DNA from: Glandiceps talaboti
Taxonomy: Eukaryota; Hemichordata; Enteropneusta; Spengelidae
Direction of reading: 5' to 3'
DNA length: 64,000 nt
Assembly: GCF_964340395.1 (NCBI RefSeq)
Contig: NC_135549.1
Coordinates: 24,821,342-24,885,341, forward strand
The notes under the pieces were generated by a model. That model saw only the letters and a list, made by a program, of their open reading frames with translations. It made no database searches and was not told where the DNA came from. Position numbers and translations under genes: made by a program. This document shows, piece by piece, positions 174 through 54,390 of this stretch. The first letter of the stretch is position 1, and every line of letters begins with the position of its first letter.

Positions 174-2164
174 TTTGATTTGGAGGTTGAAGTTAATCCA
201 AAGGACTCAATTTCTGCTTCATACGGATTTAACTTCTGTTCAGAGGTATCACCGCGTTTCAAATTACTGTAAGACCACTCAAATTCTTCAACGATACTCA
301 TCCAGCTCATCCCAAAATGACTATAATTGATGTACGGAAAGATTTCGGCGCGGAAGTATGAATCTTTCGACTTAAAACCCTGCAAGTCTTCTTTCGAAAC
401 TGTTGATGCAGCTGTAACTCTTTGTACCGGTACTTTCTTTGTATCTTGTATGTGAGTCACTACACTTGTAAACGTCTGGAAGGAACGATATTAACATCGT
501 AAGAATTAGTTCTAAAGTTGCGATACCGATGAAAAATGTTTATGTTGGATATATGATTACTAAATTTCTTTATACTAATATTTTATTATCTACTTGAAAA
601 AAAAATGAAACTACACAAAGCTGAATACTCTAGAACGCCAGCTCGTGGAAGATTGTTCCGATAACACTAAGATTTAAATCGAGGGTACACGCACAGGGTA
701 AAGGACAAATGATCAATTTTGTACTCGCGATTTTCCGGATTTCTAATATTATTTTCTGTATATTTCAAATAAACTTTTAAATACTGTTTCCTCTCACTGT
801 TTTTTTTTCTATTTCCTACCTGATATCAATGTCTTATCTGAGTTTATCAGCTTTGCATTAATTAGTAGCTTGCTAGAACAAACTCACTATTTGACCAAAT
901 TAACGCATTATACAGTGAGTGTAAACATCTACGACTAATCCGTGTATTACCATTAAGACCAGATAAGATAGCGTATGAGACGAAAGACGACTTTGGTTTA
1001 GCTACTGGGGCACGGTATCTTCTACTTCTAGAAATATGACGGTCGTTGAATTCTGCATAGATCTAGAATGGATGGGAAGGGTCTTTCAGAACACTACGAG
1101 CCTTCCATGGTATGCGTTTGTTGTAGATGAAATCTACACTTTCACTTCGTTTACCGATAATTTGGCTACCTTTTTTTAATTTCATTGTGCTGGGAATTGC
1201 TCCCAGCGATTTCCTGTTATGCATATACATACACGCAAACACCTTTTTTGATAATCTTGTTTAGTCTTCCTATCTCATCTCATTTCGGGAAGGTTACCTC
1301 CCAAACAAACAATACCAAAAGTGGGAGCACTGCAAACAACTTCTGAATCATTAAAAACACTCCAAAACGAAAAGTTTATTGTTCTTAGCTGTGTTGAGGG
1401 AAATGATACCAAGCAGTAATTGGTTGTCTCCTTCAAGATCAAGTGGTACTTTTACAGAGAAAAGTAGTATTACAGCTGTATCTGTATTACGATAACTTTA
1501 ATGTCGCACCCGTTAACAATATTTTGGGGTTTGAAAGTATCAAAAAAGTGTACGTTTTGGCCTCAGGTGTGTTACTTTGTCATAGGCTCTGCAACCCTCT
1601 GTTTAAATTATAATGCTTTTTTCAGTGTTTTAAGTTGACTCTTCACCTTTGCTTAAGTGTGACATTGTTGTCTAGCCTTTTTTACTCTCTCCGTGCAAAT
1701 CAATTTCACCACATATCAGCTGGACATTTGCTGGCTATAGTTGGCAGATCTCGACAATTACCAAACATTACTGGAGACAGGCAGATCTTGAAAGTTTATC
1801 TCGACAAATCTCGACTATTAAAAATAATTAATAACCAGAATTTCCAAAATTAAAGCAATGGTTATTATTCTAGTTTGTGCTGGTTATGCTATGCGGTTAT
1901 AGTCACTCACGCCGGTTTGCCGTAATTCCTTTGTACGACATACCGCCATGTATACGGCATCGGAAACGCCACCCTTTTTATTCAGACTAGCGTAAAAATG
2001 AAACAAGAATACAAGTTCTTATACTAATGGATGCATTGACTAAATAACTGGGTTTGCGTACTTACCACGTTTTCCACTATAAAGTATAAGACAAAGGCGA
2101 TAATTACGATGAAAAGAATATATTTCTTCATTGAAACTACCAAATTTCGTAAAAATGACATCAT
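174..2164 (-). CDS. NXPE-like: Second NXPE-like gene, exons 1-2 only (partial at left edge)
   Basis: Exon 1 at 2164-2066 (MMSFLRNLVV, then a hydrophobic anchor about 16-30, then GTAAGT) and exon 2 at 475-174 (acceptor TTCCTTCCAG, donor GTAAGA, same phases as the gene to its right). Exon 2 differs from the neighbouring copy at only a few of 100 codons, while exon 1 differs at about ten of 33. Both exons are open and have intact splice sites, so the gene is probably functional. The neurexophilin-like and esterase exons must lie beyond the left edge. The intron is about 1.6 kb, against 3.9 kb in the other copy. Confidence 0.78.
965..1080 (-). mobile_element. LINE C-terminal remnant, duplicate copy
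   Basis: Same reading as 17050-17360 (EFNDRHISRSRRYRAPVAKP), truncated. It is part of the segmental duplication. Confidence 0.55.
1188..1222 (-). repeat. Hairpin tail repeat, copy 1
   Basis: GCTGGGA/TCCCAGC stem followed by CGATTTCCTGTTATGCA. Also at 17478-17513 and, as the SINE tail, at 41915-41950. Confidence 0.6.
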
Positions 2165-2524
2165 ATTGGCCAGATTACACGGCAACGATCAATGCTGTTT
2201 TAGCCACACGAGAAATTTGGTATACTAGATTTATATTTCTGCTCTGAACAGTTCCTATGCGATAGGTGTATATCGCATTCTGCCGTAATAATATATAAAT
2301 GAACACATATGCTACGAGCTTATATTCTTTAAAATCTTTTTTTTTTCCATTATAACATTTCCAGCTGACAGCAACACAACACTTCTTTCGGTGAATTGTA
2401 AAGCAAGCCTGGACGGTGTTGTAATAATTCCAATATAATTAGTAATCTAAATGAAAGGGATCAAAATGTCGCGTAGCATTTGTGCAATCACAGCCGGAAA
2501 CCTAACATTAAAAGAACTACAAAT

Positions 2525-2528
<4 letters not shown>

Positions 2529-2580
<52 letters not shown>
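2529..2580. repeat. (AC)n microsatellite
   Basis: About 26 AC units, at the point where the two segmental duplicates diverge. Confidence 0.95.
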
Positions 2581-2582
<2 letters not shown>

Positions 2583-3104
2583 CGTTGTAGCATTAACATT
2601 ACCTCAAGGTAGTCATGTTCATATAAAATATATGTTTATTCATTGCGTAACAATATTAATCTACTTCTTATAGCAGTTTTCTGATGTAACTGCTAAGTTA
2701 AATTTATTCTCGTGGTGAAAGTTCGCAACCAATTCAACTCAGGTCTTTTTTCAGATACTGTAGTTTCCGTCAGCCTTGATTATGCATAGCTGTTTTCACT
2801 TAAACACAGATTATATCGTTTCATCTCATTTGGTTTATTAAGTCTCTGCTTGGGTGAAGATGACCCCGCTTATAATGGTTGACACATTCATAATAACAGA
2901 GCTTATGCCATTGCCTTCTTTCCGCATTTTGCCAATCATGAGCGGAGGCACATGTGGGAAAATACAAATGTAAATGTATCGATGCACATAACTGTGTTGC
3001 AGTGAAATTTAGAAAAAAAAATGGCTCGTGTCTTCCTTTAATTTATAAGGCCTAAAAAGATACTTGTGTGGTTCCGATTACGCTCAATTTCGGAATAGGT
3101 AGAT

Positions 3105-3330
3105 TTTTTGAACGATGTGTGAGTGTCTAGCTCGGGTAGTTCTGTTTTCTGATGCGGTCTCTGGTCTGTGTTATTGGTTTCTTCCCATCAGATGAACAGC
3201 CATTACAGATTGGAAGGACAGTTTTATATTGTGTTTTTGTCAGTTTCCGCTCAATTTCGCGCGATTTTATTGTGTTTTGCTCGAATACGTCAAAGAAAGT
3301 TTAAGGGTCGGCAGTGAAAAACTAGTTGGG
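3105..3330. repeat. Dispersed repeat, copy 1
   Basis: The inverted partner is about 49260-49470. Shared pieces include GGTTTCTTCCCATCAGATG and CTCGAATACGT. Confidence 0.6.
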
Positions 3331-3698
3331 GTAGGGTAACCGAAACCAACCAAGTTCAATGTGTTTGTTTGTTTGTGGGCTAAAGTTTTGCAACTCCGAT
3401 TTACCGAACATGGAAATGTCATATGACCAGTAAATTCCACTTCTGGTATTAAGAACACCGGGTGTGCAGGATAAAGAAATACTGCAACTTTAGCCGTGTG
3501 TTTAAACACTTAGAACACAGAAATCGTTCATTATTATTGTTTGACAACTATAATAGTGGCATCGTATCTCTTCAGATCATTTCTGAATTGTACTGGAGTT
3601 TAATTGTTAGGGAAAGTTGCCAATTGAAATGGAAATGGTTTGCTTTCAGTGATATTGATATCTACCGGACATTTGAGATAATCATATGAAGGCGATTT

Positions 3699-3898
<200 letters not shown>

Positions 3899-5321
3899 CT
3901 GAACAGCTCGGCCCACTTTTAAAAAGTTCACTTTTGAAAGTCAAACTGTGGTTGATAATTTTTGATTGTAAAATGAAAAATGGAATACTATTAGCACTGC
4001 GCAAATTCTGTCGTCTTTATGATTCGAGCCTCCAACAAATTTAAACGTTAGTTTGTTTGTTTTACAATTTACGTTCAATGCTACCATTGTGTTGTTAATA
4101 ATAGAGAACGGTAGGTCCCTGCTCACCAACGTGACTTCTGTCAAGAGTTGAAATGTATAGGGATTAGTATACGCAGAGACTCTCCAATCATACATATCTA
4201 TCTGCACGTAATTCGACTTTATCTCTGGGAAAGCAAAAACAACTTAAGTGTGAATACTGCCATCTTTGTACTGACTTCCGTTCTAGTATAAATAAACAAA
4301 TACTATACATGTGTTTACACTAATTTATAGCTAAAATGATGCAGGCTTTCACTCATGGGATGTTATGTTTTTGACACGGAGCTACGCATATTCCAACGTT
4401 AACTCGAGACTAACAATAACGAAGACACAACAAATGCAGCTGGAACCTTTCCCCAATTACATATTTCCTGGGGGGAAAAAACTAATCGATGTGCGATACC
4501 CGTCGGCCATATTTTACACCATGGCAGCAAATTCTCCCTAATATAGTTTCACTGCTAATGAACTTAGCTTCAATATAGGCATTACCAATATCACACGGCA
4601 ATAACAGCAACGATTGCGGACAACAAAATATCTAACAATCTACCGTTAAAATAATACTTTATTATTAATTTAAAAAGTGAAAGTGACGACACAAATTTAT
4701 ATTGAACGACAATATTGTACTAATTATCAATTAATTTGACCATTATATGTCATTCTCACCTAATTACCACGTATTGAACAATCAAGGTAACTAACAACCT
4801 GTATAATTAATGAACATGATAATATTACATTGACAACGTAATGATTTCCATCCATTCCATAGGCACGTGCCTATCGTGTATAAGTGCTTTCAGGTGACAC
4901 ACGGGCTTTGCAGTTCTTACCAGCGGCTGGCTTTTGAAGTATTCTGTAATGATGCCGACAAAGGTGATTGAACAGTTTGGACTATATGTATATTTTATGA
5001 CTGGCTTAAAAGATATCCACAAGCTACAATTATTTATATAGACTGACTACCCTAGTTGTATTCAAGGCGTGTGTGCTATTTAATTCACGGATACATTTGT
5101 TGTGTGTAATTCAGCTTTTTTAGGTTTGTAAGCTCACATTTGCTGTGTTAGCCCCCTCTAATATTCAACTATGATGTGATACTTTAAATATCATAGCAAC
5201 GTCGTTTATTGAAAGCTATATAAAATAAGGAGCATATTAGAGTGGTGGGTAAAATATTAATAAATACTGGTTCTCATCCATCAATTCATCAGTTTATCCA
5301 TCGGTCTGCCCGACCGTCCCT

Positions 5322-6087: not shown

Positions 6088-6404
6088 TAAAGGAGAGATC
6101 GCTCATCAAGTGGTTTTCTTTTTCAGTGACACCTTAAGGTTCCTTACTCTGAAATGTAAGAGTGATTAGTCACTTCCTGTATGATGCAACACGCTGACTA
6201 TGATTACAAACAGAACTAGTTCCAACAGTGTACATTAGAGACTACTACAGTATTACATTATGGGATACATACAAATATTAAAATAAAACAGGCAGACAGA
6301 CACAGACACATCGTGCCAACCAAGGTAGACTATGGGATGATATAGAGGTAATATGTGTGTGTGTACGTAGTTGAGCGTCACACAGATGCATAAGTTACCT
6401 CAGT

Positions 6405-6570
6405 TTCATTTTTACCTTCCGTAAGGAAGGTTTTATAATAGCGATGAAGTCTGTGTGTCTGTGCGTATGTGTGTGTGCGTGTGTGTGTGTGTGTTTGTAT
6501 CACCATTTCCGAAAAAACTGCTGCATCAATTCGAACGAAATTTCATAGACATGTTCCATAGGGTAATGGC
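6405..6570. repeat. Dispersed repeat around a GTCT/GT microsatellite, copy 1
   Basis: AAGGAAGGTTTTATA, then a GTCTGTGTGT run, then TCACCATTTCC. Related copies at 14990-15150 and about 25005-25120. Confidence 0.55.
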
Positions 6571-6641
6571 AAGAACTGATTAGGTTTTGCTAATAATCGG
6601 ATGAATATTAATGACCACTTTGAGTAATTAATCGATCAAAC

Positions 6642-6880
6642 AAGTATAAAGTTGGCGTCAGATTCAGATTCAGATTCAGGTTGTGTTATCTTATGAACGT
6701 TATATTGAGTGTCAGATGGCCTCAGATCCGAAGACACCTGATGGACTCAAACCTGAAATAATACCATTGAGACTACAGGGAAGGATTCTGCTTCACTGTG
6801 GTCGGGTGTATTCGGATCTGAGGCTATCAGATGCTCAATATGATGCTACCTGAATCTGAATCTCACGCCAACTTTATACT
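6642..6880. mobile_element. Foldback/MITE-like element
   Basis: Terminal inverted repeats AGTATAAAGTTGGCG and CGCCAACTTTATACT; pairing continues inwards through CAGATTCAG, ATTGAGTGTCAGATG and CTCAGATCCGAAGACACC. No coding capacity. Confidence 0.75.
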
Positions 6881-7659
6881 CGTACTCTACACTGAGAAAG
6901 ACTCTGTTTTCAGGGGTTTCGTGCCAACCTTATTTTGTGTTCCCCTTGGATCTGCACTCTGCATCAGCTGGACAAACAAAAGAAAAAAGAAGACCGAGGC
7001 AGGGTTTTTAAGTGTTTCAAACTCACCAGAAAACAATTTTTTTTCTTGGCCTTAAAATAGGTTTACAATGAGCACGGAGTTCACAAAAAGGTGAAATATT
7101 TATCATCGTTTCAATTTTGTCAAATATGGACTTTTTTCACACACTAATGCACAGATGAATAAAGAGAAATCGTGTCTTTTTAGATTTTCGATTAGAAGTT
7201 TAGGAAGTATTATATTGACCTCAAACCGTCTCCTTTTAACCACGTTCTTTTACAATTTCTCTCGATAACAAACTACCACTGTTTGTTGCAAGGCTTGTAC
7301 ATAATCATTTATCTAGCTTGTATCTCAGGATATAAATGTACTTTCACATATTTATCAAGTGTAATAATCTATAATTTATACCCAAATGTGTGTGGTCAAA
7401 ATATGAAAAATAGACCAAGCCTCGCCTAGCCTACAAAGAAAATTTCGCAACAATGTATCAATAATGGTGACCAATACATTGACCTCTACATACAGTTGTT
7501 TGATTCTCCATGTATCTTGACTTTAGCTATACACCGACATTCACAATGATAGAGAGACAGGGATATTTCTAGCGTTTGTCATATTATTTTAAACAATTAG
7601 AACACTACGCTGATCGACATCTCGCCCACGTTTTTACTGTATATTTTAGTTTGCCCATC

Positions 7660-8704: not shown

Positions 8705-9444
8705 TTAAGATGATGATTTTTTCACCATGTCTGGACAAATGTACGATAACATGAGATGTAGTTCTTGCGTAATTACCATCGGAGGCATGTGGATCTCGTT
8801 AGTGGTGATATGGGATGATACAAGATCCCAGATATCCATGAATCTGACGCCAATGCCACCAAAGACCCGACGTATCATTCTATCCATGTCATGAAATCTG
8901 TAGTTAGAGCTATGCACTCTCTGTACTAAGTCTTCATTCTCTCGGGGATGTGCTAATTTAATGATAACAGTTGAGTTAGGGCACCGGTTGAATAATCTGA
9001 GAATGGCATATTTTGCTCCAAAGAGTCTATCTAAATAAGCTCTTGTTGACCAGGAACCAAAATGGAAACAAAAATTTAAAACAACCACGGGGGTAACAGC
9101 AGTGCAATTTCTTATTCTATCTATGTAATCACCTTCAAATAACAAACCCTCAACATACTGAATAGGAGAACCAACCCTGATAAGAATGAATTTATTGTGT
9201 AATAAGTGAGGTGGTATGACATTAAGAGCTTTCATTTGTTTTTCAATTTGAACAAGGGTTGAATCTCCGTACATGTGTATTTCTTTTCCCAAAAGGCACT
9301 TTTCCATGTCTTTGGTCTGCCATTGTTGACTGCGACACATTAAAGGTACGAACGTCAGGTTATCCTTCCAATAACCACTGGACAGTGTAACTGGTAGATC
9401 AGGACCACATGACGGAAGCGCTAGCTCTGGTGTCATTTTGACGT
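8705..9444 (-). CDS. NXPE-like: NXPE-like gene, last exon: PC-esterase domain
   Basis: 740 nt from acceptor CAACACAG to the stop TAA at 8707-8705. The reading frame continues upstream of the internal Met into the acceptor (VKMTPELA). It encodes SSGYW, C-x12-C, the nucleophile motif YGDST, the VVLNFCFHF block, VIIKLAHPR, DIWDL and HLMLSYIC, all in NXPE order. Confidence 0.9.
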
Positions 9445-12400
9445 CTGTGTTGAAATATCAAAGGAACAAGATCAACAAGTATTCAATAAAGTTATTGAGT
9501 ATTGTCAGGTAAAGTATTTGTCTTGTGTTGTATTTTTCCGAAACTGTTTTCCGATTTTTGGCCTAATTCGTACCTCTCGAGTTCGTCGCACCGAAAGGGA
9601 AGAAAATTGTTCGCTCAGTGGTGGTGAAGTCTGTGTAGACCCCATAGATACTATTTTTGTCGGCTTGAGATCTAGATTCAAGTGAATTTCTAGCTATATA
9701 GGTACCACAAAAGGAAATACAATCTGTAGAATTTTTCTGACGTTACTTGCATTAGTCTGCTGTAAGTATGTGCCTTCAAATATTATAATCCGTCATTTTT
9801 GAAAATACTTACCCACCATTCTGAAAATTTGGATCCGCCATTTTTAGTATTAATGATATATTAGAAACAATCGCTATGCATACCTTTAATGTTGATTGTA
9901 ATTGGATTTCCAATATCAGATTTTCCTTTGTGTCTGTGCAATGAAATTCCAAGAAATTAAACGTGATTAAATTGCTTACTTATTGTAAGTTTAATAGCCT
10001 GGCTGATTTTATCCTTCCCCCTTTGTTTGTGAAATTGGTGCATTAAAAAAAGAAAGTTGTGTACATAAAAATACCTATCATAAAGTGACCAAGAGAGTTG
10101 AACATTTTAGATAATTATTTTCGAATGTATTTTTCAGCCAAAAAAAGGTGAATTCCAAAATTAAGGCAAACACTATGCAGATATTTATTTTTTTTATATA
10201 TTCAATATACATAAACATTAAACAAAATTGCGATCAGAATGCACTACGATTACAAAATCTAAATCTGGCTATTTTTTACATTGGTAACCTAAAGGTAGTC
10301 TTGCATATTTTCGAGATGAGAGGTAATGAGTAAAAACTAAAAAACTAAAATAAATATCCCTACAAGTTATATATTCGGTTATCAAGGGAACATATTAGTT
10401 GTGGATATATTTAGCAGGGAAATTCGCCCTCCGTCTCTCTTCAGTGATGATTGAAGTGCCCGGATGTAAATAGCTTATTTCATTCCCCGTTCAAAATGTA
10501 TATTTTCGGTGTCAAGGACCTTTACTTTGTTTATGTTGACTGAGTGACCTGGGGATTCGATGTTGATGTGTTGGGAGACCTTTGATGTGCTGGAACTTTG
10601 TCTTCTATGTTCCAAAATTCTGGTTCTAAGTGATCTCTCTGTCCCCCCTATGTATGAATCTTGACATTGGCCTGTGTTGGTCTGGCCCTGGCAAGGAATT
10701 TTGTACACTACTCCACACACATTTTACTTCTTGGTCTTGTCCTTTTGGAGACACCAATAGTGGCCGCAAGGTTTTTGTGGGCTTAAATAATGTGGGTATT
10801 TATACCGTAAGTAGTAAAGATCATTTTAAGTGCCTTTTAAGTGGCCTTGATGTAAGGTGTAGGACCACTGTTTCCTTACTTGGTTGTTCCTTCTTAAGGT
10901 TGGTTTTTGGCTTATGAGGCTGGATGACTGTGGCCTTATCTACTGCCCACTTAATAGGATATCAACACCTATACGATATAAACTTCCAGGCACCTATGAC
11001 ACCTTGTTAGGCTCACGTGTCCGTAAGGTCACATGTACTGAATAGCGGGTCAATCTGTTGCCAAATACTGATGTAGTGTTTGGAACAGAGTTTAAATTGA
11101 ATACTATGGTTTACCAACACTGATGAATTTCAATTTGAAAATAAGTTATTTACTTTTGGTTTACAAATTAACTCACAATTATGATAATTATGTAAAGACA
11201 TAGTATTATTTATTTTGGATTTGTTGCTTTATTTTGGAATTCTGCTAATACGAAGTCATATTTGACCATGTTTTTCCACCGTGGTAAATCTTGGGCAGAG
11301 GATGTGTAAATGTGGTGAGTATGAGACGAAGTTCCACCTTTGACTTAATTTACCCCCGGTGATCTCTCACCTGAGGGTTTTAGACAGTCAAAAGTGGTAC
11401 TGCGTCTCGTACTACCCCTGGACAGAGATAGTAGTTAGGTGGGTCACAGGTATATTTATAGAATGATTTCACATCTCATAAATTTCACACGACTGCAAAG
11501 AAATGCCAAAATGAAACTTGCCTCACATTCATTGTCCTAGAAGGCGACTAGTATTTCTTGATGAGAGTTAACAGACATGCACTGGACGAACAGTAAATAT
11601 TCAAGCAGTTTGAAAGGGAGTTTTGAACCAGTACCAAGATCAAACTGAACAATTATAAACAGGACAAACAAGTAATTGGTATATATGTCTACACGCCTTG
11701 ACTGTATTAGACATTGGTTTGCAGTTATATTAACTTCGCACATTTCACACTTGTTTATAATTGTTAATCCATGGCAATACTTCACTCAATCAATCAAAGA
11801 GATATCCTAGAACTTTTGGTTACTAAACCATTAATATTTACACATGTGAAGCAATCAATACATCCCGCAATAATTCTATCAGCCGCCATCCTTTGAAAAG
11901 TTTACTCGACTGTTATCATCTGATCAAACAAGTGAATTACTGAGATTCGCAGCCTTTATTTATCACTAATACTTTAATGGAACTGTAACACATTTTTGGG
12001 GTTATGTAAGTTTGTAATTGCAGTTTGGGCCTATGGCCTTTGACTACAATAAAGTGACTATATCACATTATCACAATAGAGTTTGGTTTATTGGCAAAAT
12101 ACATTTAAAATTACTGAAAATGTGAAGTTAATTTATGTGGCATTCTGCTTTCGAAATACATTTTTTTTACAAAGGACAGGACTTTTCGTGTCTCCAGATG
12201 GGGTCAGTTTTTTTTAAATTTATCAATGGGTTAGGTTGGCTTGTTTAATTGTGTGGATGAATTGCAGGGGACATTCTGTTAGTTACAACACAGACAAAAT
12301 AAATCACCAGCCTATGTCCTGGTCGTAAAAACTGATCGCTCCCTAAGGGTCGTTATTAAAACATATATTATCACTGTGTCTGTACTTACCCACTGAAAAG

Positions 12401-13055
12401 ATACGATACTGCTTCGGTATCCTTTGCTGTTTTAATGTTCATGTTGCCAATATTATTACTTGTGCTGTGTAAGTTCTCACAAGACAAGCTCTTCGGCTTA
12501 TCACAAATAAAGGCTGTTTTCCCTAAAGAAGACGGACTGACATAACCACATTTATCTTGCCATAAACCAAGATCATTAGTTATAGTACAATGTCTTGTTT
12601 CTACTAGTTTACCCTCGGTGAAGTTTGCCTGGAATCCAATACGTGTGTTCTCAAAGCTAGTTATAAAGTTTTGGTACAAGATGGCCTCTCGGTGGCGTAC
12701 TAAATGGATGGCTATGGTTGCATCCCCTTTCCACGCAGCATAGAAATATATACTATAGGTGCCATTCCCATAATCGAATACCTTCCCTCCAGTTCTTGTA
12801 CCGAGATTTTCATTTATCATCAAGCCTTGTAGAAAGTCTCCTCCACGTAAGCGTCTATTACCATACTCATCATAGGCTTCCATGATGACTTGAATGTAAT
12901 CACCCTTTCCGAAGGCCTTGTCATGCACTAGGAATAACCTAAAATACAAAAAGTGGTGACATTTTAGGACAAATTCAAGTAACAGGTAGCCAGGAATATG
13001 AAAAGATAGGGAGGGAGAGAGGAGGGACATATTTATATATGGGCGAGAAAGAAAG

Positions 13056-13138
<83 letters not shown>

Positions 13139-15045
13139 AAACGACTGACAGACGGACGGACGGACGGACGGACGGATTGGACAGCGACAGATATACCTGA
13201 CTGCCAGCTTACATAATGAATCTTATAATAGTCTTATAAGCAGGCATGCATGCAGACAGACAAACAAACAAACAAACAAACAAACAAAAGACAAAGTGGG
13301 ATATAGAGATATATGGATTAACAGACAAGGGGACGGAGACAGACAGAGAAATAGACATACATACATACATACATACATACATACATACATACATACATAC
13401 ATACAAATGTACATACTAGACTCTCTTACAGCCCTCGGAGCTTCGCTTTACTAAAATTAAAGCTAAACGAATTATTTTGTATGTACCGATGCCAGCTAAT
13501 TAACCGTACTCGAATGTCCTTGTACTGTGCGCCCTCATCGACCATGATAGAGATAACCATTCGTTGACGTGTGACTGCGACGCTCCGTATTAAGGGGCTT
13601 CGCGAAAATACGGAGCGTCGCAGTCACACGTCAACGAACAGATATCTCTAGGTGGTCGATGAGGGCGCACAGTACAAGGTTGTTCAAGTTCGATCATGGA
13701 GTACGTTATGTAGATGGTATCGGTACATACAAAATAATTCATTTAGCGTCAATTTTAGTAAAGCGAAGCTCCGAGGACTGTGAGAGAGTCTAACATACAT
13801 ACATACATACATACATACATACATACATACATACATACATACCGACAAACATACAGACAAACAGCAACAGAAATAGAGACAGAAACAGACAAAGAAGAGA
13901 TGCGCAGATAAAAAAAAAAACTGTATTTGCAATTGGAAATACTCGGAGACTAATTCTGGTTATTTCTTTCTCTTTATGTTTGCGTTCTGTTTGTTATTGC
14001 TATATTTACCATTCATTATAACTCGAGATAACTCTGATTTCGGGTTTAACATAATTTGCGGCTTGCAACAAGCTAAACAGATAACAATTCACAATTTTCT
14101 TACTTTGACTTGGAGGTTGAAGTTAATCCAAAGGACTCAATTTCTGCTTCATACGGATTTAACTTCTGTTCAGAGGTATCACCGCGATTCAAATTACTGT
14201 AAGACCATTCAAATTCTTCAATGACACTCATCCAGCTCATCCCAAAATGACTATAATTGATGTACGGAAAGATTTCGGCGCGGAAGTGTGAATCTTTCGA
14301 CTTAAAACCCTGCAAGTCTTCTTTCGAAACTGTTGATGCGGCTGTAACTCTTTGTACCGGTGCTTTCTTCGTATCTTGTATGTGCGTCACTACACTTGTA
14401 AACGTCTGGAAGGAACGATATTAACATAGTAAGAATTAGTTCTAAAGTTGCGATACGGATGAAAAATGTTTATATTGGATATATGATTACTAAACTTCTT
14501 TATACTAATATTTTATTATCCTACTTGAAAAAATGAAACTACACAGCATATCAAGTCTTGTGTAACTTAAATAAGTATAAACGTTCATGGTACCTACTAT
14601 ATGGTATAGATACAAAGAGTGTCAACACAAGTAATGCGTTTATCAAATCTAATCTGTGTATGCGTCTGCCTATTCTTCTTTGGCAAAATAAAATAAATTG
14701 TTTATTTCCGATAACATGACTATATCAGTGAAATAGGTTAGATAGGTACTTTTTTAATTACTTTGATCCCAAGATAACATACTCGTTGGTCTCAATACTT
14801 CTGAGAGTTTGTTGAGATGTGAAAGAAGTAAATGAAGACAATTATAAGTTAAGTAGACAAACACGTTATGCAGACTGTGTACTGTTATAGTCTAAATAGA
14901 CATGGTTTCTCTCTGGAATACGATTTTTTCAAGTGACTACCGATGAGGCAAAGGCATGGAGTTGCATGTGGAAATAAAAGTAAATTGGTACCATTTTAGC
15001 TTCCATAAGGAAGGTTTTATATTAGGGATGAAACGTCTGTGTATG

Positions 15046-16436: not shown

Positions 16437-18448
16437 GAAGTAGGGTTATCAATAATGGAGTATCTATGTGGAGTCATGATGGGTGATCTGAATGGTTAGT
16501 TTGACCGGCTTGGAATCTACAGGTTGCAGGTTCGACGTCTTCTGTTTGTTTCTGAGTGGCAAGATTTGAACCATGACTATACCTCAGTCAACCAAGCTGT
16601 AAAATTTGGGACCTGGTAGGATGTAGGTTGCAATGTGAAGGTTTTAATCCTATGCGCTTAAGTATGCTCCCCGGGGAGTTGAGGAAGAGACTAAAGGGCC
16701 GTTGTGTCGTTCTGATCCGAGCCAGGGTAATAATTATAAAGTGCTTTGAGCACGGAGTGGGAAAGCGCTATATAAGAACCCAACATTATTATCATAACAC
16801 GCAGCTTCAAGTATACCAAACATTTAACTATGTGACTGGAATTTTTTGGGGTAATATGCCATAGTTGTTAGTTTACCACGACCGTCTTGTTGGCGTCGGT
16901 TGATTTGGAGCTATTTACGTTTACCATATTATCTATCTTCAATTTGCTCTTTCCTAGCTATTGACGAGCGGGTCTTCAGTATTCATGTCACATGTTGGAA
17001 ACTTGACATCTCTCACATAAATCTATTTTTCAACTGAATTTGCAGGTTGTGGTTTCAGGATCAAGATCAGAATTACTTTATTCAAACCACTAGAGGAAAT
17101 TAAAACGATAATCTATGCAGCAGCTGCTAAAACAAAAATAAAAGCAATACAAAAGAAAGCATTACGCTTATTACACAGGCTTACTAAAAACACCAGCCGG
17201 GCACTAAAAGGAACGATAATGGTTATTATTAAGAACTGAGATAGCAGATGGGACGAAAGACGATTTAAAACGCTTTGCTTTAGCTACTGGGGCACGATAT
17301 CTTCCACTCCTAGAAATTTGACGTTCGTTGAATTCTGCATAGATCTAGAGTGGATGGGAAGGGTCTTTCAGAACACTACGAGCCTTCCATGGTATGCGTT
17401 CGCCGTTTGTTGTAGATAAAATCTACACTTTCACTTCGTTTACCGATAATTTGGCTACCTTTTTTAAAAAAAAAATTGTGCTGGGAATTGCTCCCAGCGA
17501 TTTCCTGTTATGCATATACATACACAGAAACACCATTTTTGATAATCCTGTTTAGTCTTCCCATCTCATCTTATTTCGGGACAGGTTACCTCCCCAACAA
17601 ACAATACCAAAGGTGACTGCACTGCAAACGACTGCATTAAAACACTCCAAAACGAAAAGTTTATTCTTGTTCTTATAGCTGTGTGGAGGGAAATAATACC
17701 AGACAATAATTGGCTGTCTCCTTCAAGATCAGGTGGTACTTTTACAGAGAAGAGTAGAATTGTATTAATACAGCTGTATCTGTATTACGATAACTTTAAT
17801 GTCGCACCCGTACACTATATTTTTTTCTGGGTTTGAAAGTATCAAAGAAAGTGTACGTTTTGGTCTCAGTTGTGTTTGTCATCGGCTCTGCAACCCTCTG
17901 TTTAAATTATAATGCTGTTCTCAGTATTTTAAGTTGACTCTTCACGTTTGCTTAACTGTGACATTGTAGTCTTGTCTTTTGTACTCTCTCCGTGCAAGTC
18001 AATTTCACCACATATCATTGCGACATTTTGTGACTACAGTAGGCAGATCTCGACAATTACCAAAAATTACTGGAGACAGGCAGATCTTGAAAGTTGATCT
18101 TGCCAAATTTCGACGATTAAAATTACTTTAATAATAACCAAAATTACCAAAATTGAAGCAATGTTATTATTCTGGTTTGTGCTGGTTATGCTCTACTGTT
18201 ATGGCCACCTCACCCCGGTTTGCCACAATTCCATGTGTACGGCATCGGAAACCCCACCCTTTTATTCAGACTAGCATAAAAATAAAAAACCGAGAAAAAA
18301 GTTGTTATACTAATGGATGCATTGACTAAATAACTACTGGCGTACTTACCGAGTTTTCCAATATAAAGTATGACACAAAGGCGATAATTAAGATGAAAAG
18401 AATATGTTTCACCTTCGAAGCTACCCAGTTTCGTGAAAATGACATCAT
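8705..18448 (-). CDS. NXPE-like: NXPE-like protein (neurexophilin and PC-esterase domain), complete five-exon gene model
   Basis: Exons on the minus strand: 18448-18350, 14405-14104, 12938-12390, 9820-9813 (8 nt) and 9444-8705. They sum to 1698 nt, 565 residues plus stop, close to the usual NXPE length, and every junction phase matches. Residues 1-33 carry a signal anchor (about 16-30, ILFILIIAFVSYFIL) and no obvious cleavage site, so a type II Golgi/secretory membrane protein is expected. Residues 134-316 hold the neurexophilin/filamin-like domain with GGDF (166-169), GKVFDYGNGTY and conserved cysteines. Residues 320-565 hold the PC-esterase-like domain: GDS (379-381), then LNFCFHF, then IHMPP (His538) before LSYIC. 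NXPE proteins are thought to be carbohydrate O-acyltransferase or esterase relatives; the substrate here is unknown. The usual Asp three residues before the catalytic His reads Asn (NEIH), so activity is uncertain. The weakest part is the microexon. The start is the first ATG of a tandem ATG-ATG pair. Confidence 0.85.
9813..9820 (-). CDS. NXPE-like: NXPE-like gene, candidate 8-nt microexon (exon 4)
   Basis: Exon 3 ends with two bases of a codon and exon 5 begins with two bases of a codon, so they cannot be joined directly. An exon of length 2 modulo 3 is needed between them. AATGGTGG sits between a TTTTCAG acceptor and a perfect GTAAGT donor, is 8 nt long and restores the frame (Gly-Met-Val-Asp). 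Extending it upstream to the next AG with the required phase meets a stop. No transcript was available, so another exon could serve instead. Confidence 0.5.
10382..10930 (-). mobile_element. Penelope-like element remnant (GIY-YIG endonuclease end)
   Basis: In NXPE intron 3. Minus-strand translation shows KKEQPSKETVV, then PYIKAT, FKPTKTLRPLLVSPKG, CGVVYKIPC, CQDSYIGGTERSLRTRILEH and SPGHSVNINKVKVLDTE. These are the end of the reverse transcriptase and the GIY-YIG domain of Penelope-like elements. A 4-nt GTGT duplication near 10713 shifts the frame, and a TAA interrupts the conserved block after FERGMK. Non-functional. Confidence 0.85.
11319..11412. mobile_element. Short foldback element
   Basis: Imperfect arms GTATGAGACGAAG... 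and ...CGTCTCGTACTAC, with an inner stem around CCGGTGA/TCACCTG. In NXPE intron 3. Confidence 0.5.
12390..12938 (-). CDS. NXPE-like: NXPE-like gene, exon 3: neurexophilin/filamin-like domain
   Basis: 549 nt between a TTTTAG acceptor and a GG|GTAAGT donor. It encodes RGGDFLQ, GKVFDYGNGTYSIYF and a Cys-rich end (CTIT, DKCGYV, FICDKPKSLSC), in the order found in NXPE proteins. It ends with two bases of a Gly codon. Confidence 0.88.
13041..13413. repeat. Compound microsatellites
   Basis: (GAAA)n to 13140, then (ACGG)n, (ACAA)n and (ACAT)n up to the foldback at 13417. Confidence 0.9.
13417..13792. mobile_element. Foldback element in an (ACAT)n microsatellite
   Basis: Two arms of about 175 nt pair almost throughout, from the outer end TAGACTCTC to the inner CGACGCTCCGTATT, around a 15-nt loop (13592-13606). 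(ACAT)n lies on both sides. It has no coding capacity. Non-autonomous, MITE-like. Confidence 0.8.
13793..13842. repeat. (ACAT)n microsatellite
   Basis: Continues the same motif on the far side of the foldback element. Confidence 0.95.
14104..14405 (-). CDS. NXPE-like: NXPE-like gene, exon 2: stem region
   Basis: 302 nt with a pyrimidine-rich acceptor (TTCCTTCCAG) and a GTAAGA donor. It enters in phase 0 and leaves with two bases (AA), which the first base of exon 3 completes to Lys. It encodes the lumenal stem up to the first strand of the neurexophilin-like domain (STSKSK then LFLVHDKAFG). It is nearly identical to 174-475. Confidence 0.82.
14990..15150. repeat. Dispersed repeat around a GTCT microsatellite, copy 2
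   Basis: AAGGAAGGTTTTATA, GATGAAACGTCTGTG, (GTCT)n, TCACCATTCC. Same layout as 6405-6570. Confidence 0.55.
15407..15486. repeat. (AAAC)/(GACA)n microsatellite
   Basis: AAAC units interrupted by five GACA units. Confidence 0.95.
15820..16025. repeat. Dispersed repeat, copy 1
   Basis: Matches 19598-19810 in inverted orientation (GGGGATGTAGAAGTAG, GAAATGTTGATTA). Confidence 0.6.
16379..16437. repeat. (TTG)n microsatellite
   Basis: About 18 TTG units, just upstream of the SINE. Confidence 0.95.
16480..16800 (+). mobile_element. tRNA-derived SINE
   Basis: A tRNA-like head (GAATGGTTAG as box A, GGTTCGACGTC as box B) is followed by a body and the tail AAGCGCTATATAAGA, then ATTATT-rich sequence. 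This is the layout of invertebrate tRNA SINEs. Confidence 0.65.
17050..17360 (-). mobile_element. LINE 3' end remnant
   Basis: Minus-strand reading EFNERQISRSGRYRAPVAKA, then KRFKSSFVPSAISVLN, is the C-terminal end of a CR1/Jockey-like reverse transcriptase. A 3' UTR follows, ending in TTCTGATCTTGATCCTG. Confidence 0.65.
17478..17513 (-). repeat. Hairpin tail repeat, copy 2
   Basis: Same stem and flank as 1188-1222, within the right segmental duplicate. Confidence 0.6.
18350..18448 (-). CDS. NXPE-like: NXPE-like gene, exon 1: start codon and signal anchor
   Basis: Thirty-three codons beginning MMSFSRNW, with basic residues (R6, K12, K14) before a single hydrophobic helix. It ends in phase 0 at a strong GTAAGT donor. 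A diverged copy of the same exon lies at 2066-2164. Confidence 0.8.
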
Positions 18449-18837
18449 ATTGGCCAGGTTACACGATGGCGATAAATGCTGTTTTAGCCACACAAGAATT
18501 TGGGTATACTGGATTTATATTTCTACTCTTAACAGTACCTGTGCGATAGGTGTATATCGCATTCTGCCTTAATAATTTGTACATTAACACATATGCTACA
18601 AGCTTATATTCTTTTAAAGGATTGTTTAAGTATATTATTTCCAGCTGACAGCAACACAGCACATCGTTCGGTGAATTGTAAAGCAATAGATGATGATATA
18701 AATTAAATAATTCCATGAACGATCTACTGAAAGAGATCAAAAGATTACAAAGCATTTGACAAGTGCAATGACAGCCTAATATTAAAAGAATTAAAAAAAT
18801 ACACACGAACACACACATACACACACACAAAAAAACC

Positions 18838-18840
<3 letters not shown>

Positions 18841-18928
<88 letters not shown>
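18841..18928. repeat. (TA)n beside hammerhead element A1
   Basis: 88 bp of pure AT dinucleotide. Confidence 0.95.
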
Positions 18929-18930
<2 letters not shown>

Positions 18931-19060
18931 CTCGGTGAGTATCAATCTGCTAAGACAGTGCGCTATACCGCAGTGGTAGAGCGCAATAGTTTTGGTAGTA
19001 CTGGAACTCTTTCTTGGTTGTAACTCGGAGTTTCACGCATTGTGCGATCATCAGACAACT
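18929..19060 (-). mobile_element. Family A hammerhead element, copy 1
   Basis: About 130 bp next to an 88-bp (TA)n. It holds the hammerhead, then a shared 3' part with CAAGAAAGAGTTCCAG, and a tRNA-like stretch (CCGCAGTGGTAGAGCGC on the plus strand). The left segmental duplicate lacks this insert. Confidence 0.65.
19017..19059 (-). ncRNA. Hammerhead ribozyme motif A1 (type I, short helix III)
   Basis: Read on the minus strand: helix I GUUGU/ACAAC; core CUGAUGA at 19054-19048; helix II CGCA/UGCG with loop CAA and a U-U pair at its base; core GAA; helix III ACUC-C-GAGU; cleavage expected after the U at 19022. All conserved core bases are present and all three helices pair. Confidence 0.75.
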
Positions 19061-19095
19061 GTTTTCTACTATCTGTGTGTTTGCATTTGCGTTAG

Positions 19096-19202
19096 AGGAA
19101 TTGTAGCGTTTGATTTTGGTCAAACGTCGGAACGAAAAAAGGTACAAAAACAGACGAAAAAGCCCTCAAAGTCACACCAAACGCTACAATTATTGCAGCT
19201 AG
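19096..19202 (+). mobile_element. Small MITE-like repeat, copy 2
   Basis: Terminal repeats ATTGTAGCGTTTG and CAAACGCTACAAT bound about 105 bp. The middle is purine-rich and non-coding. Confidence 0.6.
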
Positions 19203-19597
19203 GAACAGTAGGTCTCTGGTACTTAAACAACATTAATCACCACTTCTGTCAACAGTTGAAATGTATAGAGATAAGTATACGTAGAGACTCTCCAATCATA
19301 CATATGTATCTGCGCGTTAATTCGACTTTATCTCTGGGAAAGCAAAAACCTGAAATGTGAATACTGCCATCTTTGTACTGACTTCCGTTCTGGTATAAAT
19401 AAACAAATACTATATACATGTGTTTACACTAAATTATAGCTAAAATGATGTAGTCTTGGTGTTTCACTCATGGGATATTATGTTTTTTGACACGGAGCTA
19501 GACATATTTTAACTATAGACTAACAATAACGGAGACACAACAAATGCAGCTGGAACCTTTCCTCAATTACATTGAACACCGGATAAGCATTGCTATT

Positions 19598-22562: not shown

Positions 22563-32254
<9,692 letters not shown>

Positions 32255-49552: not shown

Positions 49553-49556
<4 letters not shown>

Positions 49557-49722
49557 GTTTTGAAAATTTGAACCAAATTATATGCTATAGACCCTACAGA
49601 ACTGTTTCGTGAGGTGCGTAGTCCTCACTCATCAGGGGTGATGAGTGAGGACTACGCATCTCACGAAACAGTTCTGTAGGGTCTATAGCATATAATTTGG
49701 TTCAAATTTTCAAAACCTGTAT
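49553..49722. repeat. Long foldback with hammerhead motif B
   Basis: Two arms of about 83 nt around a GGGG centre, with one mismatch between them. The outer ends run into (TA)n on the left and AT-rich DNA on the right. The inverted pair probably arose by head-to-head insertion or rearrangement of one element. Confidence 0.85.
49591..49639 (-). ncRNA. Hammerhead ribozyme motif B
   Basis: Minus strand: helix I ACCC/GGGU, CUGAUGA (49635-49629), a perfect 6-bp helix II GUGAGG/CCUCAC with loop ACUACGCA, GAA, helix III ACAG-UU-CUGU, cleavage expected after the A at 49595. It lies in one arm of a long foldback; the plus-strand arm has lost C3 and helix I. Confidence 0.78.
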
Positions 49723-49780
49723 ATAATTCGCTCTACTACCCGTATTGAGCACTTTTATGTGGTTTTATCTACATCCAGTC

Positions 49781-49782
<2 letters not shown>

Positions 49783-49857
<75 letters not shown>
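49783..49857. repeat. (TA)n before family A copy 2
   Basis: About 75 bp of pure TA. Confidence 0.95.
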
Positions 49858-49859
<2 letters not shown>

Positions 49860-49947
49860 AGAGAGTAGGCCTCAGAGTTGTCTGATGATCGCACTATGCG
49901 TGAAACTCCGAGTTACAACCAAGAAAGAGTTCCAATACTACCAAAAC
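49858..49947 (+). mobile_element. Family A hammerhead element, copy 2 (truncated)
   Basis: Starts just after (TA)n at 49857, contains motif A2, and ends at CTACCAAAACTA where a second (TA)n begins. Confidence 0.65.
49877..49919 (+). ncRNA. Hammerhead ribozyme motif A2
   Basis: Same fold as A1: helix I GUUGU/ACAAC, CUGAUGA (49882-49888), helix II CGCA/UGCG with loop CUA, GAA, helix III ACUC-C-GAGU, cleavage expected after 49914. Embedded between (TA)n tracts. Confidence 0.75.
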
Positions 49948-50469
49948 TATATATATATATATATATGAATTCTGCCTTCCCACCTATTCTAAAATTGATC
50001 GTAATCGGAAGCACTCGGTTATCAAACCTCTCGTCGTTTCATATAACCGTTTGAATCGACGAATGTATCGAACACTTTTCATTTGTGATAGCTTACTAAT
50101 TAAGATTACAGGGAAGTATGGTAAATAAATGATATATAGTGTATTGAGATAATCGTCACAGTTGAAGACATTTGTAAATGTAGCATCATTTTATCACTCG
50201 ATGAAAATATATTACGTGGAGACAAATCTGTCTTCTCATTTGCCATCAATATTCTGTACTCGTACTTTGTTAACTAGTAAATTATGTATCTTAATATATA
50301 GGTGTGAGCATAACTTTATTCCAAACATAAAAATTAAAGAATATAGGAAGGTGTAACTTGCAAGGCAAAGACGAATGTCTGCATTGAAACGGTGGTTATT
50401 GATTTTACATATTCTTGTAATTATTGCTGTCGTCATTTTTACAAACAAAGAGTGCCGAGTGTGTGTATG

Positions 50470-53880: not shown

Positions 53881-53885
<5 letters not shown>

Positions 53886-54070
53886 TTGGTAGCACTGGAA
53901 CTCTTTCTTGGTTGTAACTAGCATTACGCGATCAACCGCAGTTGTCTGATGATCGCGCAATGCGTGAAATTCCGAGTTACAACCAAGAAAGAGTTCCAGT
54001 ACTACCAAAACTATTGCGCTCTGCCACTGCGGTATAGAGCACTGTCTTAGCAGATTGATACTCACCAAGT
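53881..54070. mobile_element. Family A hammerhead element, inverted pair
   Basis: A truncated minus-strand copy (53881-53935) faces a fuller plus-strand copy (53936-54070). Both ends abut (TA)n. It carries motif A3 and the tRNA-like stretch (TTGCGCTCTGCCACTGCGG). Confidence 0.65.
53941..53983 (+). ncRNA. Hammerhead ribozyme motif A3
   Basis: Helix I GUUGU/ACAAC, CUGAUGA (53946-53952), helix II CGCG/UGCG, GAA, helix III AUUC-C-GAGU. The changes from A1/A2 keep pairing by G-U wobble. A broken inverted copy lacking the core lies immediately upstream (53881-53935). Confidence 0.72.
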
Positions 54071-54109
54071 TATATATATATATATATATATAAATATATA
54101 TAGATATAT

Positions 54110-54181: not shown

Positions 54182-54390
54182 AATACATATATACATATAA
54201 AACACAATATCAAGGACGATATTAAGGTGTCGTTACACAGTCTTTCATTCTGTTGCGATCATCAGGCGACTAACAGTTGCTCCTGAGTATCTTGCTTGAT
54301 ATTGTGTATTTATCACTCTACATACATATGTTCTGTGCACTGGTTACTCCAGCATAGACATTTTACATATACTGATACATATATGACATG
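54182..54390 (-). mobile_element. Family C hammerhead element, copy 2
   Basis: Follows (TA)n directly and matches the 26003-26207 unit along most of its length. It lies downstream of the family A pair, so two families share one (TA)n block. Confidence 0.6.
54229..54270 (-). ncRNA. Decayed hammerhead motif C2
   Basis: Same family as C1 with the core intact (CUGAUGA at 54265-54259, GAA) and most of helix I, but helix II no longer pairs and helix III has one mismatch. Confidence 0.5.

Follow-up and report, generated by a model that had tools for sequence, protein, structure and literature searches.

Three copies of a 43-nt motif with a hammerhead-like core lie within 64 kb of the genome of the acorn worm Glandiceps talaboti, raising the question of whether the motif is a ribozyme, what kind of element carries it, and what part it might play in that element's life cycle. 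We found it at 19059-19017 (minus strand), 49877-49919 and 53941-53983 (both plus strand) of the window, by which we mean the whole 64-kb stretch of DNA analysed. These are the places given by the initial annotation, and the CUGAUGA, GAA and three pairing helices it had described in every copy were borne out by a check of sequence and pairing. A 31-nt piece of the motif, searched for with up to 3 mismatches, matched the window at those three places alone and had no match in shuffled sequence (0/100). The looser pattern CUGAUGA..GAAA, with a gap of 4-20 nt, occurred 7 times in the window against 0.89 expected, a count never reached in shuffles. A search of viral contigs with the 24-nt core pattern gave no match. 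We call this motif and its element family A, and count element positions from the A that opens AGUUGU, ahead of the core (position 1), so that the predicted cut falls at 39/40 (49914/49915 in copy A2). The copies, together with those of a neighbouring family B, are as follows.

18929..19060, minus strand: copy A1, comprising hammerhead, body and tail (element positions 1-132); a solo copy whose outer 3' site abuts (TA)n
19017..19059, minus strand: A1 predicted hammerhead, predicted cut 3' of 19022
49554..49783, unstranded: family B fold-back, with a tail-less left arm to about 49638 and a tailed right arm at 49639-49783
about 49639-49591 (core 49635-49606), minus strand: family B predicted hammerhead, within the fold-back
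49858..49950, plus strand: copy A2, the copy originally noted; 18 nt of upstream pseudo-LTR and then positions 1-75, up to the inner 3' site
49877..49919, plus strand: A2 predicted hammerhead, predicted cut 3' of 49914
53883..53919, minus strand: inverted left arm of A3, which is a fold-back; positions 75 to about 36, with the inner 3' end abutting (TA)n
53920..53939, minus strand: A3 junction, containing an inverted remnant of hammerhead sequence
53940..54071, plus strand: A3 right arm, positions 1-132 with tail; predicted hammerhead at 53941-53983, predicted cut 3' of 53978
54015..54071, plus strand: A3 tail, which contains a stem-loop and separates the two 3' end sites

Copy A2 is located inside the (TA)n that comes after family B. 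Family B is itself a second hammerhead of Penelope-like type, with a canonical core and a 6-bp helix II, and had at least 58 genome matches when 40 of 377 candidates were scored. Two decayed hammerhead-like relics, at 54229-54271 and 26028-26075 (both minus strand), sit beside TA or ATT tracts and possibly represent a third family. The window also holds a segmental duplication (983-4462 / 17267-19572; two blocks, of 84% and 89% identity), through which we sought an empty site for A1; none was obtained, A1 falling in an unmatched gap. Exons of NXPE4/neurexophilin-type genes and of an apparent ion channel occupy 8705-13222 (minus strand) and 26959-29406 (plus strand); the Ion_trans match of the channel-like exons scores below the model's cut-off.

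A hammerhead is recognised by a core of consensus CUGANGA...GAA together with three helices. In family A helix I (GUUGU/ACAAC, 5 bp), helix II (CGCR/UGCG, 4 bp, with a 3-nt loop) and helix III (ACU-CCG-AGU, 3 bp) can all form, the pairing in the third copy including two G-U pairs. The helix II pair adjoining the core, which we take to be 10.1/11.1, is U·U; the core and the three helices are those of a type I hammerhead. The hammerhead fold has a calculated energy of -3.1 kcal/mol in subfamily A-I, -0.1 in the third copy and -2.2 in subfamily A-II, and the minimum-energy folds, at -5.3, -10.3 and -6.2 kcal/mol respectively, differ from it. Minimum-energy folding of the three window copies did not favour the hammerhead in any. 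The initial annotation had held that the lack of a significant covariance-model hit would refute a ribozyme, and for Rfam this is the outcome: no hammerhead family matched the window at the gathering score, where nothing matched at all, or up to E 10, where none of the 50 matches was a hammerhead and many were miRNA models aligned to simple repeats. The Rfam model mir-1278 matched the family B palindrome below its own cut-off. The Rfam hammerhead models are built on longer, canonical hammerheads. The family A motif is best read as a minimal type I hammerhead, predicted from its sequence and resembling those known from Penelope-like elements, and taken alone it is a weak-looking one.

The many copies of the element say more about the fold than the motif alone. 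Searching the 590-Mb genome (47 contigs) for the repeat body (positions 44-75, up to 3 mismatches) gave 1550 + 1540 = 3090 places, against 0 for the reversed control. After deduplication, the 5' half of the hammerhead was kept in 159 of 198 fetched body contexts, and the core was unaltered in most of these 159. Helix I stays paired across the two subfamilies through compensatory change in 33/33 copies, which had been selected for a retained upstream CAGAG and for fit to the search pattern: 17 had UUGU/ACAAC, 15 GUGU/ACACC, 1 GUGU/ACAUC and 0 were mixed. GUGU stood beside ACAAC in 3 of the 159 rows; their 5' ends are truncated, and the letter there may come from flanking sequence. This replacement of U-A by G-C is our strongest indication that the fold has been under selection, though it is a single event between two lineages. 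The changes in the third copy, which had been offered as a sign of past selection, do keep pairing through G-U, but they make a weak argument: a single one of the 159 fetched copies shows the C to U change in helix III, and the change in helix II defines a small subfamily. Helix I, compared between subfamilies, is the stronger evidence.

The element that carries the motif is a Penelope-like element (PLE), one of the two affiliations originally suggested, and the motif lies in its pseudo-LTR (pLTR), downstream of its ORF. Among eight copies traced about 8.5 kb upstream (two of which, L052 and L053, include long N stretches), three (L050, L051 and L055) have open frames that contain the run VYIGLTENNFKQRYANHK and stop roughly 200 nt short of the hammerhead. 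In L050 the frame spans 2677-4446 (590 codons), with the hammerhead and tail following at 4668-4799 and then (TA)n, and a pLTR piece that begins near element position 35-37 lies before the ORF, at 2241-2338. The L050 frame had 3433 relatives at E <=0.001 among 7982 candidates scored. For a relative with 61% identity to the frame (P0002), modelled from 37 sequences at pLDDT 86.5, the first 5 rows of a Foldseek search against the PDB were telomerases (E 3e-8 to 2e-7), at a low TM-score by query of 0.32-0.38. Through this model of a relative at 61% identity, the PLE ORF is predicted to encode a telomerase-like RT. Pfam found no RT domain and no GIY-YIG domain in the ORFs given to it. A PDB search by sequence gave no match. 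A putative GIY-YIG endonuclease is assigned by motif alone, from VYIGLTENNFKQRYANHK, which sits in a conserved stretch with no Pfam match. Canonical PLEs are marked by a telomerase-like RT and a GIY-YIG endonuclease (PMC11167929), and the further PLE traits of a pLTR with a TATA box, an optional tail and inverted copies are all found in family A. We regard the motif as a hammerhead in a PLE pLTR, an ordinary resident in an unusually informative setting. Adjoining the family A copy of L051, in reverse orientation at 6146-6976, is a distinct RT that contains the run WRYIDDIWGLW and may belong to another PLE clade.

A purified PLE protein cleaves both strands of its target and extends them, and its RT begins at two sites, one on either side of the tail (PMC11167929). 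The 3' ends of family A likewise fall on two sites. On contig C1, 56 of 138 arms ended at position 75 and 61 at 137, together 117/138, the end at 137 being about 132 plus chance TA letters. This C1 sample comprises 61 loci after 9 same-place repeats were dropped; it requires an exact body at positions 44-75 and omits four clusters of the capped list of body matches, near 13.461, 21.313, 21.639 and 22.422 Mb, while 13.502 Mb is in the other sample. The tail between the two sites has a same-shaped hairpin in A3 and family B and a variant of it in A1; its stability exceeds that of shuffled sequence in A1 (z -2.3) and B (z -1.7), and the A3 tail folds no better than shuffles (z 0.35). A tRNA-derived SINE identity was dropped, with ARAGORN finding 0 genes and the hairpin being the PLE tail.

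At the other end of the element, 93 of 100 hammerhead arms had no more than 12 nt of sequence upstream of the core, most commonly 6 nt. Among 12 long copies listed, 7 of which had been chosen for having CTATATA, the TATA-like box TATATATA begins 32-34 nt ahead of the hammerhead 5' edge in 10, and the remaining 2 carry a variant of it. We infer that transcription starts at this edge and that the RT runs off the end of the RNA there. Because the 5' ends cluster at the hammerhead edge, 32-34 nt below the TATA-like box, the ribozyme probably opens the transcript, forming from the first ~45 nt of RNA.

A hammerhead-cut RNA used as template would give arms that end at position 40. Counting fold-back junctions genome-wide with a spacer of up to 10, we found 199 with both arms at the 5' edge and 16 at position 40; the spacer of the latter was <=3 in 12 and exactly 1 in 10, both subfamilies were represented, and microhomology, read by eye, was at most 2 nt. 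Clearly distinct unique flanks distinguish 12 of these 16 loci, two others (L127 and L132) having few letters of flank and two (L128 and L136) TA alone within the fetched stretch. Of the arms in the C1 sample, 7 (from 5 loci) have their ends at 36-41, compared with 19 across 56 other positions, in counts made by eye that omit L098 (an internal deletion) and one L107 arm running off the stretch. At control positions, a spacer of <=3 was seen in 0/7 junctions at 50, 1/1 at 30 and 6/8 at 22, where two of the 6 resemble one local duplicate. Position 22 falls on the inverted repeat of helix II, and its cluster indicates that the sequence itself can make junction hot spots, which weakens the position-40 junctions as proof of cleavage by themselves. 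Family B had no junction at its predicted cut. On balance the position-40 junctions are suggestive of hammerhead cutting of a minority of templates in vivo, and are not proof of it.

If instead the U·U and the weak helices make the hammerhead inactive, it would be a relic and the junctions at 40 a microhomology hot spot. We incline against this account but take it seriously: the missing Rfam match, a minimum-energy fold other than the hammerhead, the sequence-made hot spot at control position 22 and the behaviour of family B at its cut all agree with it. It is harder to square with a helix I altered on both sides between the subfamilies, with 12 junctions at position 40 that have at most 2-nt microhomology in two subfamilies, and with a core left unaltered in most of 159 copies.

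How the fold-backs themselves arise is indicated by the ends of their arms. Head-to-head pairs numbered 48 in the 61 C1 loci, and direct neighbours were seen in 11 loci. Leaving aside 6 pairs with an arm ending elsewhere, 41 of 42 classifiable C1 fold-backs had one inner and one outer 3' end, against about half expected; locus L105, two pairs resembling a local duplicate, reduces this to 40/41 if counted once. The exceptions to the pairing rule are L075, L022 and L143/L144. A second sample of 27 pairs, mostly from a query favouring inner ends, contained 16 inner+outer, 1 outer+outer and 10 unclassified. One tail-less and one tailed arm were likewise present in 16/16 position-40 loci (in L139 the tail-less arm ends a few nt short, and L126 and L129 have an extra piece) and in 6/7 separate position-22 loci, the exception being L143/L144, apparently one duplicated locus; in L147, also a position-22 locus, both arms fall short of the usual sites. 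In family B the same was true of 17/17 head-to-head pairs among the matches listed, a set that favours tailed arms. Furthermore, in 35 of the 36 pairs with position 43 known in both arms the letter there was the same (CC 23, AA 11, TT 1; T/C 1). One RNA with two start sites, each used once and by a different DNA end, would yield both mixed arms and a shared haplotype, while independent copying of two RNAs, or self-priming, predicts neither the pairing rule nor the shared letter. We therefore infer that a fold-back comes from a single RNA on which both DNA ends have primed. Six fold-backs (L010, L012, L016, L023, L029 and L040), and probably L100, have a common junction beginning ACTATCATCACGC, and the six are identical after position 121, so that a single fold-back appears to have multiplied as a whole.

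In self-priming, a strand turns back on itself and serves as its own template; this would be the first cDNA or, as proposed for a rotifer Penelope in the portion of PMC3846280 available to us, an antisense transcript. Self-priming could accommodate the palindromic junctions, the haplotypes common to both arms and the junctions on the helix II inverted repeat. The copied arm should then traverse the tail, yet the second arm ends at the inner site in 41/42; that site is also used by solo copies, and mixed arms persist in 6/7 of the separate helix II junction loci. We consider self-priming unlikely. An animal retrozyme, that is, a non-autonomous 170-400 nt tandem repeat unrelated to the PLE ORF and spread via ribozyme-made circular RNA, is very improbable, and this half of the original suggestion was not supported: like family A, retrozymes have a type I hammerhead in a small repeat, at thousands of copies (PMC7229834, from its accessible text), and some family A copies are direct neighbours (the 11 loci in C1), but the motif lies in a pLTR downstream of a PLE ORF, 48 head-to-head pairs occur in 61 loci, the 3' ends fall on two sites in PLE fashion, and the sampled copies are PLE pseudo-LTR pieces, mostly solo or head-to-head, rather than tandem non-coding 170-400 nt monomers outside an ORF-bearing element.

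Altogether, we think it likely that family A is a PLE pLTR hammerhead that opens the transcript, with double-primed insertion into (TA)n from two start sites. The TATA-like box of the pLTR would set the transcript start at the 5' strand of helix I, the ribozyme being the first ~45 nt. The PLE protein would cut both strands of (TA)n DNA and copy the RNA from fixed start sites at 75 and about 132, which flank the tail. Both DNA ends would use a single RNA as template, starting at different sites, and the two cDNAs would join head to head; the resulting fold-back would have a tail-less arm and a tailed one, like A3 and B. The fuller proposal, that Penelope-like elements insert by such double priming and that a minority of their templates had already been cut by the hammerhead at the head of the RNA, leaving a genomic record of ribozyme cleavage in vivo, we put forward tentatively, at a little short of an even chance.

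Poseidon of Anolis carolinensis (PAc) is, like family A, a PLE with a hammerhead in its pLTR region, two tail-bounding RT start sites and an AT-rich target; both DNA strands are cut and extended in PAc, as we propose for family A (PMC11167929). The PAc ORF begins within the hammerhead, whereas family A has body and tail between hammerhead and ORF; unlike in PAc, the next hammerhead of the family A element comes ~200 nt past the stop codon. Family A insertions sit in (TA)n, and their one-inner-one-outer fold-back rule is absent from the PAc description (PMC11167929). For PAc no RNA reads were found to begin or end at the hammerhead site, and cleavage was unnecessary in vitro (PMC11167929). The Penelope families of the rotifer Adineta vaga, as given in the available part of PMC3846280, also have a TATATATA box in the pLTR, head-to-head inverted pLTRs with palindromes and an optional tail on one inverted pLTR; unlike family A they have low copy numbers, with self-priming rather than double priming proposed, and the word 'hammerhead' occurs 0 times in that part of the account. 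The minimal PLE hammerheads (Cervera and de la Pena 2014; Lunse 2017), according to an excerpt of PMC7761336, are likewise of type I and located in PLE repeats, but are described without helix III or loop-loop contacts, whereas family A has a 3-bp helix III. Family A differs from the animal retrozymes, as far as the accessible text of PMC7229834 describes them, in belonging to an ORF-bearing PLE.

We came across neither the pairing rule nor a footprint at the cleavage site in the literature listings searched or in PMC11167929, PMC3846280, PMC7229834, PMC7761336 and PMC12910113, some of them in partial text; Cervera and de la Pena 2014 and Lunse 2017 fall outside this set, and we do not claim priority. 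How PLE insertion is completed and what the hammerhead does are described as open (PMC11167929; PMC7761336, in its available part). The ~3000 pLTR pieces in this one genome are a countable record of start sites, of the pairing rule and of template 5' ends, and further PLE-rich genomes, like the in vitro system already available, allow the pairing rule to be put to the test.
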